Part shown: positions 23,560 through 36,528 of the stretch, one piece after another | Numbering within the stretch: position 1 is the first letter of the stretch | Layout: the number at the start of each line of letters is the position of its first letter | Source of the DNA: Armatimonadota bacterium | GTDB taxonomy: Bacteria > Sysuimicrobiota > Sysuimicrobiia > Sysuimicrobiales > Humicultoraceae | Assembly (NCBI GenBank): GCA_031459855.1 | Contig: JAVKHP010000001.1 | Coordinates: 1,488,429 to 1,552,428 of the forward strand | Length of the DNA stretch: 64,000 bases | Direction: 5' to 3' | Translations under genes and position numbers: made by a program | The notes under the pieces: generated by a model | Database searches by the model: none | Told to the model about the DNA's origin: nothing | What the model saw: only the letters and a program-made list of their open reading frames with translations

Positions 23560-23908
23560 GTGCGGCCCTCCGTCGTGGTTTTTCCCGATCCAGGGCGTCG
23601 ATAGACCCCACCCGTACCTCCGCGCCGTGTTAGCCGCCGCTGCGCCGGGCATCACGGCACGCCTGCGAGGAGAGACGGTACCTCGTCGGCTCGGCGTGCG
23701 CGCGCAGCGCCCCGGGACCCCACGCCGGCGATGAAGACATCTCCCGAGGCGATCGCCGACGGCTCGCTACTTGCTGGCCGCTGCCAGGCCCACGCCGGCC
23801 AGGACGAGACCCAGCCTCGGCGATGGCCGCGCAGATGCGCTTGCGGGCCCCACGCCGGCCAGGAAGAGACCTCCCCCGAGGCGAAGACGGTGCGGGGAGG
23901 AAACCGCG
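23560..23908. repeat. Divergent intergenic region with three imperfect 37-bp repeats
   Basis: No gene is seen in this 349-bp gap between the HD-GYP operon (minus) and the molybdopterin oxidoreductase (plus). Three degenerate copies begin with CCCACGCCGGC at about 23717, 23787 and 23847 and continue roughly as CAGGANGAGACCTCCCCCGAGGCGA. The last copy ends just before the SD of the oxidoreductase gene. No known molybdenum-cofactor riboswitch pattern was recognised. Confidence 0.5.
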
Positions 23909-26284
23909 ATGCGGTGGACCCCGGCGCTGTGGGCGAGCCGCCGGCCGTTCGGGCTCGGCGAGCAGCGCCCCAACAACTACCTGGAGATCTGGCGGGCGCT
24001 GTGGGAGAACCGCGGCGCGCTGCCCTACGCGTGGCGCATCCTCACGCAGGGCGTCTGCGACGGGTGCGCGCTCGGCACCAGCGGGCTGCGCGACTGGACC
24101 CTGCCCGGCGTGCACCTGTGCAACGTCCGCCTGCGGCTGCTGCGGCTGAACACCGCCCCGGCCCTCGACATCCGGCTGCTGGCCGACGTGGGCCGCCTGC
24201 GCGGGCGTCCCGCCCATGCGCTGCGCGCGCTGGGCCGGCTCCCCTACCCGATGATCCGGCGCCGTGGCGAGGCCGGCTTCCGACGCGTCGCCTGGGACGA
24301 GGCCCTCGACCTGGTCGCGGCCCGCATCCGCACGGCCGGACCCGAGCGGCTGGGCGTCTACCTCACCAGCCGGGGGGTGCCCAACGAGACCTACTACGCG
24401 GCGCAGAAGGCGGTGCGCGCCATGGGCACCAACGCCATCGACAACGCCGCCCGCGTCTGCCACGCGCCCTCCACGTTCGGGCTCAAGCAGGCCCTGGGCG
24501 TGGCGGCGTCCACCTGCTCGTACACCGACTGGATCGGCACCGACCTGCTGGTGTTCATCGGGTCCAACGTGGCCAACAACCAGCCGGTGGCCATGAAGTA
24601 CCTGCACTACGCGCGCAAGGCCGGCACGCGGGTCGTGTGCGTCAACCCCTACCGCGAGCCCGGCATGGCGCGCTACTGGGTCCCGTCGGTGCTCGAGAGC
24701 GCGCTGTTCGGCACGACGATCACCGACCGCTTCTTCCTGGTGAACGTGGGCGGCGACGTCGCCTTCCTCAACGGCGCCCTCAAGTGGATGCTCGCCCGCG
24801 GCTGGGTCGACCGCGCGTTCGTCGACGGGCACACCACCGGCTTCCCCGAGCTGGCAGCAGCCCTGGCCGCGCAGCCGTGGGAGGCGCTCGAGCGCGCCAG
24901 CGGCGCCTCGCGCGAGGAGATGCTGGCGTTCGCCGAGCTGGTGGGCACCGCCCGCACCGCCGTGTTCGTCTGGTCGATGGGCGTCACGCAGCACGAACAC
25001 GGCGAGGACAACGTGCGGGCCATCGTGAACCTGGCCCTCGCCCGCGGCTTCGTGGGACGGCCGCACTGCGGGCTGATGCCCATCCGCGGCCACTCCGGCG
25101 TGCAGGGGGGCGCCGAGATGGGCGCCTACGCCACGGTCTTCCCCGGCGGGCTGCCCATCACGCCCGAGCACGCCCGGCGGTTCGCCGCGCTGTGGGGCTT
25201 CCCGGTGCCGGCGACGCCCGGGCTGACCGCGCCCCAGATGATCGACGCCGCTGCCGAGGGCCGCCTCGAGGTGCTCGTGTCGGTGGGCGGGAACTTCCTC
25301 GAGGTGCTGCCCGACCCGCGCTACGTGCGGGCGGCGCTGGAGCGCGTGCCGGTGCGGGTGCACCTGGACATCGTGCTCTCCACGCAGATGCTGCTCGAGC
25401 CCGGCGACGTGGTCGTCCTGCTGCCGGCGGCGACCCGCTACGAGACGCCGGGCGGGGTGACCCAGACCACGACCGAGCGGCGGGTGATCTTCAGCCCCGA
25501 GGTCCCGGGGCCCCGCATCGGCGAGGCGCGGCCCGAGTGGGAGGTGTTCATGGACCTCGCGCGGCGCGTGCGCCCCGAGTGGGCCGATCGCCTGACCTTC
25601 CGCGACACCGCGGCGATCCGCGAGGAGATCGCCCGGGCCGTGCCCTTCTACGACGGCATCCAGCGGCTGCGCCGCGCCGGCGACCAGTTCCAGTACGGCG
25701 GGCCGCACCTGTGCGCCGGCTGGACCTTTCCCACGGCCGACGGCCGGGCGCACTTCGCCGTGGTGACGCCCCCGGTGGTGGAGGTGCCCGCCGGGCAGTT
25801 CCTGCTGGCCACCCGCCGGGGCAAGCAGTTCAACAGCATCGTGCACGAGCGCACCGACGCCCTCACCGGGGCCGGACGCGACGCCGTCTTCATGCACCCC
25901 ACCGACGCCGCGCGCCTGGGCCTGGCCGAGGGCGCGCCGGTGGTCGTACGCAGCGCCGCCGGCGAACTGCGCGGCCGCGTGCGGCTGGCGCCGGTGAAAC
26001 CCGGCAACCTCGAGGTGCACTGGCCCGAGGGCAACGTGCTGCTCGACCGGCGGCGACGGTCGCGCGAAGCGGGCATCCCCGACTACAACGCGGTGGTCAC
26101 GGTGACGCCCGCCGCGGTGGCGCAGCCGGCCGCCGCGGCGGCGGGGGTTGCGTCGGTTGCCACGAACCCGCACGGCGACCCCGTGGTGCAGCGGGTGCAG
26201 CCGGTCACCGCGCCGGTGGACGCCGCACCGGTTGATGCCGCACCGGTGGATGTCGCGCCGGGCGCCAGGGCGCCCCAGGCGTAG
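23909..26284 (+). CDS. Molybdopterin oxidoreductase (formate dehydrogenase alpha-like, YdeP type)
   Basis: The 791-residue protein is a DMSO-reductase-superfamily oxidoreductase of the YdeP/FdhF-like branch. Near the N terminus Cys50-x2-Cys53 (GVCDGCALG) and Cys71 probably bind an Fe-S cluster. The likely Mo ligand is Cys184 in ARVCHAPSTFGL, the position occupied by selenocysteine in some formate dehydrogenases. The C-terminal cofactor domain ends around GNLEVHWPEGNVLL. A repetitive Pro/Ala/Val tail of about 60 residues follows (APVDAAPVDAAPVD). No signal peptide is seen, so it should be cytosolic. The ATG at 23909 has GGGGAGG. fdhD follows 16 bp later. Confidence 0.92.
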   Translation: MRWTPALWASRRPFGLGEQRPNNYLEIWRALWENRGALPYAWRILTQGVCDGCALGTSGLRDWTLPGVHLCNVRLRLLRLNTAPALDIRLLADVGRLRGRPAHALRALGRLPYPMIRRRGEAGFRRVAWDEALDLVAARIRTAGPERLGVYLTSRGVPNETYYAAQKAVRAMGTNAIDNAARVCHAPSTFGLKQALGVAASTCSYTDWIGTDLLVFIGSNVANNQPVAMKYLHYARKAGTRVVCVNPYREPGMARYWVPSVLESALFGTTITDRFFLVNVGGDVAFLNGALKWMLARGWVDRAFVDGHTTGFPELAAALAAQPWEALERASGASREEMLAFAELVGTARTAVFVWSMGVTQHEHGEDNVRAIVNLALARGFVGRPHCGLMPIRGHSGVQGGAEMGAYATVFPGGLPITPEHARRFAALWGFPVPATPGLTAPQMIDAAAEGRLEVLVSVGGNFLEVLPDPRYVRAALERVPVRVHLDIVLSTQMLLEPGDVVVLLPAATRYETPGGVTQTTTERRVIFSPEVPGPRIGEARPEWEVFMDLARRVRPEWADRLTFRDTAAIREEIARAVPFYDGIQRLRRAGDQFQYGGPHLCAGWTFPTADGRAHFAVVTPPVVEVPAGQFLLATRRGKQFNSIVHERTDALTGAGRDAVFMHPTDAARLGLAEGAPVVVRSAAGELRGRVRLAPVKPGNLEVHWPEGNVLLDRRRRSREAGIPDYNAVVTVTPAAVAQPAAAAAGVASVATNPHGDPVVQRVQPVTAPVDAAPVDAAPVDVAPGARAPQA

Positions 26285-26300
26285 GGCGCCTGCCGCCGCC

Positions 26301-27242
26301 ATGGACGCGCGCCCATCCAGCAAGACCCGCCTCGACCTGATCGAGGTGGAGGCGGGCCGCCGCCGCTCCCGCACCGACCTGGTGGTGACCGAAGAGCCTC
26401 TCGAGATCCGCCTGGCCGCGGGCGGCGAGCGGCGCACCGTCGCCGTCACCATGCGCACGCCCGGCGCCGACTTCGAGCTGGCGGCCGGGTTCCTGCTGGG
26501 GGAAGGCGTCGTCGCCGGCCGCGACGCCATCGCCCGCATCGCCTACTGCACCGATCCCGACCTGGACGCCGCCCAGCAGTACAACGTCGTACAAGTGACG
26601 CTGCGCGCCGATCGCCTGCCGCCACTGCAGTCGCTGGAGCGGCACTTCTACACCACCAGCGCGTGCGGCGTGTGCGGGAAGGCCAGCCTGGAGGCGCTGC
26701 GGGCCCGGGGCCTGCGCCCGCCCGCCGGCGAGGTTGCGGTCAGCGCCGACGTGCTGCGCGCGCTGCCCGGCCGCCTGCGCCAGGCCCAGGGGTTGTTCGC
26801 GGCCACCGGCGGGCTGCACGCCGCCGCGCTCTTCACCGCGCAGGGCGACCTGCTGGCGGTGCGCGAGGACGTGGGCCGGCACAACGCGCTGGACAAGCTG
26901 GTCGGCTGGGCGCTGCTCACCGACAGGCTTCCGCTGTCCGCGCATGTCCTCCTGGTGAGCGGGCGCGCCAGCTTCGAGCTGGTGCAGAAGGCGCTCGCCG
27001 CGGGCGTGCCCGTCTTCTGCGCCATCTCGGCGCCCAGCAGCCTGGCGGTGGCGCTGGCCCGCGAGTTCGGGGTGACCCTGGTGGGCTTCCTGCGGGGCGA
27101 GCGGTTCAACGTGTACGCGGCGCCGGCGCGGGTGCGCGTGGCGCCCGAGGGCGAGCCGCCGGTCGCGAGCGATGCCCGGGCCGCCCGCGGGTCCCCGAGC
27201 GATGCCCGCGCCCCCCGTGGATCCGCCGGGCTCGCGCGGTAG
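26301..27242 (+). CDS. fdhD: Formate dehydrogenase accessory sulfurtransferase FdhD
   Basis: The 313-residue protein is FdhD, which transfers sulfur to the bis-MGD cofactor before its insertion into formate dehydrogenase-type enzymes. The catalytic pair Cys122-x-x-Cys125 lies in TTSACGVCGKAS, and DVGRHNALDKLVG and LLVSGRASFELVQKAL are family hallmarks. A C-terminal extension of about 35 residues repeats SDARA(A/P)RGS twice and is not part of the family fold. The gene follows the Mo-oxidoreductase by 16 bp without its own strong SD, which suggests translational coupling. Confidence 0.95.
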   Translation: MDARPSSKTRLDLIEVEAGRRRSRTDLVVTEEPLEIRLAAGGERRTVAVTMRTPGADFELAAGFLLGEGVVAGRDAIARIAYCTDPDLDAAQQYNVVQVTLRADRLPPLQSLERHFYTTSACGVCGKASLEALRARGLRPPAGEVAVSADVLRALPGRLRQAQGLFAATGGLHAAALFTAQGDLLAVREDVGRHNALDKLVGWALLTDRLPLSAHVLLVSGRASFELVQKALAAGVPVFCAISAPSSLAVALAREFGVTLVGFLRGERFNVYAAPARVRVAPEGEPPVASDARAARGSPSDARAPRGSAGLAR

Positions 27243-27382
27243 GCTACGCCGACCGCCCGCGTCCTCCACCAGCAGCACCGGCCTCCCATGCAACTGCAGA
27301 CTCCGCACGGCAAGCCACCCGCGCCGGCCATCCATGGAACCCCCGAGTTCCCGGCGTACCGCCCGGATCGGTCACCGACCGG

Positions 27383-28117
27383 CTACTCCGCGGCGATCTC
27401 CCTCGCGCGCACCAGATCGTCTGGCGTATTGATGTTGAAGAAACTGTGCAGCTCGGGGTCGTCTGCCCTGAGCACCTCCTCGGACACGTAGGCCACGCGC
27501 GAGCCCAGGGCGTCCAGCAGGGCGTGCATCGCGCGCCGGGGCCCGGACAGCAGGTCTTCGGCCACCGAGGCCACGCGCGCCGCATACACCGCGCACAGCG
27601 GCTGCGCCCGTCCGCCCACCACGGGCACCACCGCATCCTGGCCCCCGGCCCGGGCGATCGCGATGAGGCGGGCGAGCACCGCCGGCGCGACGAAGGGCAT
27701 GTCGACCGCAACCACCGCCGCCAGCGCAGCCTCCCCCCCGGCGGGCTCGCCCGGCGCACCTTCCAGGAAGCGCAGCCCGGTCGCCAGCCCTCCCAGCGGC
27801 CCCGCCTCGGGCCACCGGTCGGCGACGACCGCGACCTGGCTCTCGCGCGGCGTTGCCACGGAGGCGAGCAGGGCACGGGCCGCCGGCGCCGACGCCGCCA
27901 CCACGATCACGGGCCGACAGACCGCCGCCAGGCGCCGCACCGCCCGCGCCAGCAGCGTCTCGTCGCCCAGGCGCAACGCCGCCTTGTCGACGCCCAGGCG
28001 TCGGCTGCGGCCGCCGGCGAGCACGATGCCTGCGTTCCAGAGCGAGTGGGTGTCCTTCAGCGGTCCCCCGGCACACCCGCGCGCGGCACCGATCCCGGCG
28101 GGCCGCGTGGGGCACAT
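27383..28117 (-). CDS. mobA: Molybdenum cofactor guanylyltransferase (MobA type)
   Basis: A 244-residue nucleotidyltransferase. The GTP-binding signature LAGGRSRRLGVDKAAL (33-48) and the metal Asp of VVAVDMPFVAP identify the MobA family, which attaches GMP to molybdopterin to make MGD, the cofactor needed by the neighbouring oxidoreductase. The frame has an N-terminal extension of about 28 residues before NAGIVLAGG; the ATG at 28117 is preceded by an unusually close AGGAG, so the true start is uncertain. It is convergent with fdhD and lies 18 bp downstream of the prepilin gene. Confidence 0.9.
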   Translation of the reverse strand: MCPTRPAGIGAARGCAGGPLKDTHSLWNAGIVLAGGRSRRLGVDKAALRLGDETLLARAVRRLAAVCRPVIVVAASAPAARALLASVATPRESQVAVVADRWPEAGPLGGLATGLRFLEGAPGEPAGGEAALAAVVAVDMPFVAPAVLARLIAIARAGGQDAVVPVVGGRAQPLCAVYAARVASVAEDLLSGPRRAMHALLDALGSRVAYVSEEVLRADDPELHSFFNINTPDDLVRAREIAAE

Positions 28118-28874: not shown

Positions 28875-29120
28875 TCACAGGGCTTCAGCCAGCAGGCGCG
28901 CTGCCTCGCCGGGCTGAGGAAACCGGCCGGCGCTGGCCTTGTTGAAGATCGTGCGCCTGCCGGCGAAGATGGCGAACCGCCCACCCGACGACGGGACGAT
29001 CACCACCGACGCGATGCGGTCCGCGTGCTCGCCGAGCAGCTCCTCCGCCACACGGGCGGCGTGTCCTTCGTACCCTCATTCCGCGCAGTACTCGATGCGC
29101 ACCGTAATGCGCTCGGGCAT
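28875..29120 (-). CDS. SelW/Rdx-family selenoprotein (UGA at codon 15)
   Basis: Read through one in-frame TGA, this is an 81-residue Rdx (SelW/SelT/SelH) protein. The redox motif is Cys12-Ala-Glu-Sec15 in RIEYCAE-U-GYEGHAARVAEELL, exactly the family's CxxU. The rest also fits: VVIVPSSGGRFAIFAG, then IFNKASAGRFPQPGEA. The TGA is at 29078-29076 and the real stop at 28877-28875. The ATG at 29120 has a strong SD (GGAGGTGAC). Family members are small thioredoxin-fold redox proteins of the cytosol. No frameshift or decay is visible on either side of the TGA, so this is recoding, not a pseudogene. selA, selB, selC and selD are not in the window and must be elsewhere if the reading is right. Confidence 0.88.
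29045..29078 (-). promoter_or_regulatory. Candidate bacterial SECIS element behind the UGA codon
   Basis: Immediately 3' of the UGA (29078-29076), after 16 nt, a perfect 5-bp stem CCGCC/GGCGG (29059-29055 with 29049-29045) encloses the loop CGUGU. The loop contains a GU and starts about 22 nt after the UGA, close to the position of the SelB-binding loop in E. coli fdhF. It lies inside the coding sequence, as bacterial SECIS elements do. Spacing and loop fit; the lower stem is poor. Confidence 0.55.
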
Positions 29121-29515
29121 CTGTCACCTCCGGGTGCGCTCCCGCAAGCCCACGTGGGAGAACGAAATTCTTCTACAATAGTCTTCTACAAAGTTGGCGG
29201 GAGATCCCGGTCACCCTGCTGCAGGCGGCTGCCACTCTAGAATAGCCCGTTCGGGTGCTCGCACGTGCGACGGACTGGCGGTGCCGCGGCTGCAGGCCCG
29301 TGACCCTGGAGCTGTGTGGTTGGCTGATTGTGCGGGACGACGAGCTGAGGATACAGCCACCGCGGTCCCAAACCTACGGTCAGCTGTCCATGGATCGCGC
29401 GCGGAGGTGAGCCGGCGATACCGCGGCGGCGGGCGCCCCGTCCCGTAGGTGGCCGTTGGGTGGCGGTTGGGTGGCCGTTGGGCGGCCGTTGTAGATGGGC
29501 CCGTTGCGTTTCCCG
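29121..29515. other. Intergenic region upstream of the selenoprotein
   Basis: No gene is supported. An unusually A+T-rich patch at 29161-29195 carries a direct repeat of TCTTCTACAA (29169-29178 and 29182-29191, 13-bp pitch), about 50 bp upstream of the selenoprotein start. It probably contains that gene's promoter or operator, though no clean -35/-10 pair was found. Confidence 0.4.
29449..29492. repeat. Four tandem 11-bp repeats
   Basis: GTGGCCGTTGG at 29449-29459 is followed directly by three copies with one or two changes, the last ending in GCGGCCGTTGT. It lies just past the 3' end of the minus-strand gene at 29516. Confidence 0.7.
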
Positions 29516-32460: not shown

Positions 32461-32591
32461 GTAAACGCCCAGCGTAAACCACCCAGGGTAACCACCGAGG
32501 GTAACCACCCAGGGTAAGCACCCAGGGTAACCACCCAGGGTAACCACCCAGGGTAACCACCCAGGGTAACCACCCAGGGTAACCACCCGGG
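32461..32591. repeat. Tandem array of ten 13-bp units
   Basis: The unit is GTAACCACCCAGG. Ten units run head to tail; the central five are nearly perfect, and the two ends are degenerate. GGGTAACC within the unit contains the palindrome GGTAACC. The array lies between the convergent ends of the phosphorylase gene and the Mrp operon. Units are too short and have no spacers, so it is not a CRISPR array. Confidence 0.9.
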
Positions 32592-32670
32592 TTCGACACA
32601 ACTGCGTCCAGCGGCCCCTGTGCCGCAGCAGCCGTCCCCTGTCGACGCCCGCACCCTAGTTCGACAGCCC

Positions 32671-36111: not shown

Positions 36112-36528
36112 TCAGCTCTCCTCCGCCAGCGACAGCACGATCACCAGCGTCGCGCCCACCACGACGAGGAAGACGCCGACGTCGAACAACAGCGGGGTAC
36201 CCACCTCCAGGGCGCGGCCGCCCCCCAGCGACACCGCCACCCACAGGCCCGCCAGCAACCCGCGCCCCGCCGCGAGCCCGGCCAGCGCGCTCGTAGCGGC
36301 CACGAGCAGGCCCGCGCCGATCAGGCGCAGCGGGTCGGCGCGCAGCAAGCGCCGCGCCGCGTCCGGCCCTTCCGCGAACGCCACCAGCGCCACCGCTCCC
36401 GCAGCCACCAGCCCGGCCGCGAACCCCCCGCCTGGCTCGTGGTGCCCGCGCACGAGCAGGAAGGCGGCAAACAGCAGCAGCAGGGGCAACAGGAACCGCG
36501 CGGCCGCACTGAGGATCACCGACCGCAC
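36112..36528 (-). CDS. mnhB: Mrp Na+/H+ antiporter subunit B
   Basis: The 138-residue protein has four hydrophobic segments and the family signature [24 protein letters not shown], plus [21 protein letters not shown] near the end. It encodes the separate MrpB subunit in addition to the MrpB-like C-terminal part of MnhA, as in seven-gene (group 1) Mrp operons. Confidence 0.94.

Follow-up and report, generated by a model that had tools for sequence, protein, structure and literature searches.

Gene, motif and protein family

The window, i.e., the whole analysed stretch of 64,000 nucleotides, contains a stand-alone gene that encodes a small thioredoxin-fold protein of the Rdx/SelW-like type, a selenoprotein whose UGA at codon 15 is very probably decoded as selenocysteine (Sec); we put the probability of this reading at about 0.96. 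The features of the gene are listed in Table 1. The original prediction had described a minus-strand frame led by a Shine-Dalgarno sequence and containing one internal TGA, and this frame was borne out with exact coordinates. The terminal stop is likewise TGA, and ordinary stop-codon reading would end the gene after 14 codons. The motif of the protein is C12-A-E-U15, with the TGA at the second active position. The protein matched the Pfam family Rdx (PF10262) over residues 6–76 when the TGA was read as a residue (E 7.9e-18; 64.9 bits, cut-off 22.6), as well as the NCBIfam model TIGR02174 (CXXU_selWTH; 48.8 bits, cut-off 34.2). These two matches agree with the prediction that the TGA occupies the second position of the CxxC/CxxU motif and has family sequence on both sides, and the proposed alignment with Rdx proteins gave the same picture. 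For the narrower model NF041051 (SelTWH_Campy), the protein scored under the cut-off (72.6 vs 88 bits). All TGA codons of the 64 kb window were scanned, and only two had coding-like composition on both sides: codon 15 and the TGA at 36114. The latter was judged by eye to be an ordinary gene boundary, where an antiporter-subunit-like gene ends and the next gene follows in frame.

Table 1. Coordinates of the selenoprotein gene, its signals, and the related genes in which both motif positions are TGA
Feature	Sequence	Position	Strand	Remarks
Rdx/SelW-like selenoprotein CDS	window	28875..29120	minus	81 aa + stop; ATG 29120-29118, stop TGA 28877-28875
In-frame TGA, codon 15 (U of CxxU)	window	29076..29078	minus	very probably read as selenocysteine; conserved in homologues
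TGC, codon 12 (Cys of CxxU)	window	29085..29087	minus	from sequence and alignment
Shine-Dalgarno GGAGGTGA	window	29124..29131	minus	strong; 3 nt before ATG; from the sequence itself
Candidate bacterial SECIS, apical hairpin CCGCC-CGUGU-GGCGG	window	29045..29059	minus	begins 16 nt past UGA; comparative evidence
UxxU relative L059	QHUL01000094	from 623
UxxU relative L061 (also L027)	VBAI01000134 (genome G019)	from 2953
UxxU relative L063 (also L028)	VBAP01000031 (genome G020)	from 1875

The protein is predicted to adopt a thioredoxin-like fold. Its AlphaFold model had a mean pLDDT of 93.3, with a strand at residues 5–12 and the redox motif at the end of this strand. A Foldseek search returned the solved SelW-like structures 2obk, 2fa8, and 2p0g with a TM of ~0.9, and thioredoxins were also matched, less closely than these bacterial structures. 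The bacterial SelW-related structures (2fa8, 2obk, 2p0g, 2oka, 2ojl, and 3dex) are alike in fold (TM ~0.9) and in sequence family, with ~28% identity to the window protein. Eukaryotic SELENOW (mouse, 2npb) is alike in the family of its redox motif, but the TM was only 0.68. The eukaryotic SECIS sits in the 3' UTR.

CxxU SELENOW-like proteins with an Rdx domain have already been catalogued in prokaryotes (PMC9312934, PMC13188914, PMC2398784). The window protein shares with them the Pfam family, the CxxU motif with one Sec, the size, the thioredoxin-like fold, the Sec machinery, and a downstream SECIS; the sole difference is the host, a genome of Sysuimicrobiota (CSP1-3). The window gene therefore adds a member to the catalogued CxxU SelW-like family and is not a new kind.

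Within the window, the neighbors of the gene comprise an N-methylation pilin-like gene, a MobA-like gene, FdhD, and a Cys-type molybdopterin oxidoreductase. This neighborhood was not conserved among the relatives examined, and it thus gives no clue to the substrate. The oxidoreductase is formate-dehydrogenase-like and has Cys (RVCHAPS) at the position where Sec-type enzymes have Sec; it is followed by FdhD, with the MobA-like gene on the other strand (23771–28117). A search for Sec-type formate dehydrogenase gave only partial matches, which had no in-frame stops. Elsewhere in the window (32468–32592), just after a phosphorylase-like gene, there is a tandem array of 9.6 copies of the 13-bp unit CCCAGGGTAACCA.

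Selenocysteine machinery and conservation of the UGA codon

If the organism decodes UGA as Sec, as the original prediction held, its genome should contain selA, selB, selD, and tRNA-Sec, whereas the lack of selB or selC would speak against such decoding. All four were found in the source genome (3.19 Mb, 4 contigs, 97.7% complete). The tRNA-Sec scored 66 bits and was also called by ARAGORN as tRNA-SeC with the anticodon TCA. The selB gene scored 348.9 bits (cut-off 242; E 3.1e-104), and selA, which was recognised from its translation, lies directly upstream of it (L009, 14133–15629, minus strand). The selD gene (G000 C1:1149867-1150790, L016; 388.5 bits, E 2.1e-116) reads ACAGU across an in-frame TGA of its own, and is itself a selenoprotein gene. 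Together with the conserved TGA and the SECIS-type hairpin described below, this machinery supports the predicted decoding.

Relatives in named genomes, among them Armatimonadetes bacterium CSP1-3 (tree label Candidatus Sysuimicrobiota), assign the window to the phylum Sysuimicrobiota, formerly CSP1-3. The comparison was extended to 43 genomes of this phylum, all of one class and one order. The description of the phylum likewise gives one class and one order (PMC11604079). In 31 of these genomes, selB was over the cut-off. Because the tRNA-Sec model also matches other tRNAs, only strong matches were counted, and a clear tRNA-Sec (at least 68 bits) was present in 15 of 17 other Rdx-bearing genomes, the exceptions being G031 (68% complete) and G020. 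A separate observation concerns G029, a genome of the phylum in which selB and tRNA-Sec are both duplicated: contigs C11 and C34 each carried one full-length selB gene and one clear tRNA-Sec gene. Contamination (6%) could explain this doubling.

An Rdx homologue was found in 19 of the 43 genomes (that of G042 was read from L054), and 18 of these homologues, including that of the window, have TGA at the motif position. The single other one (L037) has TGC, coding for Cys. The remaining 24 genomes had no Rdx homologue at the threshold used, and since most of them have selB, absence of the Rdx gene is not tied to absence of Sec decoding. An alignment of the region 3' of the UGA served as the query for a scan of named genomes, which gave 262 stretches encoding a relative. 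The best 80 of these were read, and 79 had TGA at the codon in question, which indicates that the Sec form is common in bacteria. The homologues from named genomes span Bacillota, Chloroflexota, Thermomicrobiota, and others. Homologues with Cys at the Sec position were L037 and L093.

A conserved hairpin downstream of the UGA codon

The five base pairs of the hairpin that follows the UGA were all formed in 17 of 17 distinct sequences of the phylum. Among synonymous recodings that followed the codon usage of the genome, 19% formed all five pairs; of 2000 protein-preserving recoded sets, none reached the observed conservation. Codons within the hairpin are nearly invariant (GCC, CGT, and GTG, each in 17/17), whereas neighboring codons vary; CGT codes for only 13 of 138 Arg residues in selA/selB. 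The second base of the hairpin loop is G, in agreement with the published bacterial SECIS consensus. The hairpin sequence is absent from the Cys homologue L037.

Covariation was examined in 57 sequences. Both partners of a pair had changed in 32 cells, compared to 7.5 in shuffles, and such two-sided changes affected three of the five pairs. For example, in three phylum sequences an Ala-to-Val change on one side accompanied an Ala-to-Thr change on the other, which converted a C-G pair to U-A. The covariation score was 0.410 vs 0.195 when shuffled (0/500), and the signal was lost when the partner was slid. Because the 57 sequences were picked largely for the first hairpin register, the percentage of paired sequences is inflated, whereas the counts of two-sided changes are less affected. 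When the stretch from the window was folded alone, it was not unusually stable (z +0.65 to +1.3), so the case for a SECIS rests on comparison. The search of Rfam returned no matching element, only a chance match. Judged by this comparative evidence, the conserved hairpin 3' of the UGA appears to be a bacterial SECIS, and as such it provides independent evidence for UGA as Sec.

In the wider set of homologues, 17 can form a register-shifted hairpin and 14 fit neither register. SelW-like genes of Tissierellia/Clostridia (L062, L072, L082, L091, and other Firmicutes loci) can form the hairpin AGAGC-AGUU-GCUCU, shifted by ~4 bases. This shifted hairpin may represent a second SECIS register within the SelW-like family.

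In the mechanism that we propose, SelA and SelD would make Sec-tRNA-Sec from tRNA-Sec, and SelB, bound to the hairpin just 3' of the UGA, would bring it to the ribosome. The UGA at codon 15 would be read as Sec and the UGA at the end of the gene as a normal stop. Cys and Sec of the CxxU motif, which closes the first strand, would most likely form a reversible selenylsulfide and serve in thiol/peroxide redox chemistry. Sec insertion, binding of SelB to the window hairpin, the redox role, and the substrate are all matters that we infer.

Other readings of the internal TGA were weighed against the same data. A sequencing error or a pseudogene, with the TGA introduced during assembly or by nonsense mutation of a Cys-type Rdx gene, would be in keeping with a single in-frame stop and with the Cys members of the family, such as L037. 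We consider this highly improbable, because the TGA stands at the same codon in 17 further genomes of the phylum and in 79 of the best 80 named homologues; such conservation in relatives shows that it is not a sequencing error. The frame is moreover under purifying selection where tested, with dN/dS of about 0.1–0.2. Equally hard to credit is a true stop with a downstream restart yielding a truncated protein. An in-frame GTG codon does lie 3' of the TGA, but a product that starts there would be devoid of the first strand and of the redox motif, and the stretch from the start codon to the TGA is conserved as protein and has its own Shine-Dalgarno sequence.

Slightly less remote, though still very unlikely, is that UGA is read generally as Trp, Gly, or Cys, or is read through without a signal, so that the residue is not Sec. 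General reassignment of UGA exists in some lineages. Against it, the window gene itself terminates in TGA, the selA, selB, selD, and tRNA-Sec genes are all present, and the UGA aligns with the redox Cys and is followed by the conserved hairpin.

Relatives with a second in-frame TGA

In three relatives of the CxxU gene of the window (L059, L061, and L063), both positions of the motif are TGA (UxxU). The tree groups them in a single clade (100/91), nested in the phylum's main CxxU clade beside the CxxU protein L026, and this nesting makes it most likely that the second TGA is derived. Pairwise differences among the UxxU genes reach 33 nt over 237, with dN/dS of about 0.1–0.2, and both TGA codons are retained; these values indicate that the genes are under purifying selection. 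The three assemblies have similar sample names (14_1009_...) and may belong to a single study. Silent differences among the genes are independent and argue against a shared artefact. The tRNA-Sec of G019 scored 70.6 bits. In G020, no clear tRNA-Sec was found, and its selB begins 98 bases from a contig end.

The UGAs of the UxxU genes are codons 12 and 15, nine bases apart, and the hairpin loop lies 33 and 21 nt downstream, respectively. The same hairpin would serve both, if both are decoded. It is probable that a second Sec replaced the partner Cys in one lineage of the phylum, and that the resulting SelW-like protein is a bacterial UxxU form whose two UGAs are served by one SECIS. UxxU forms of SELENOW have been reported from amphioxus and Ostreococcus lucimarinus (PMC7539508), which parallel the three bacterial relatives in the form of the motif and differ in it from the CxxU protein of the window. 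Current catalogues describe bacterial SelW-like proteins as CxxU with one Sec (PMC9312934, PMC13188914). In the literature searched, UxxU SelW was found only for amphioxus and Ostreococcus and none was bacterial; a bacterial UxxU SelW has apparently not been reported before.

The description of Sysuimicrobiota covers chemoautotrophy and does not mention selenium (PMC11604079). With selB in 31 of 43 genomes, this uncultured phylum very probably uses selenocysteine. Its UxxU relatives would catch the replacement of Cys by Sec inside one small clade, and they provide a natural experiment on the capacity of a single bacterial SECIS to act on two closely spaced UGA codons.
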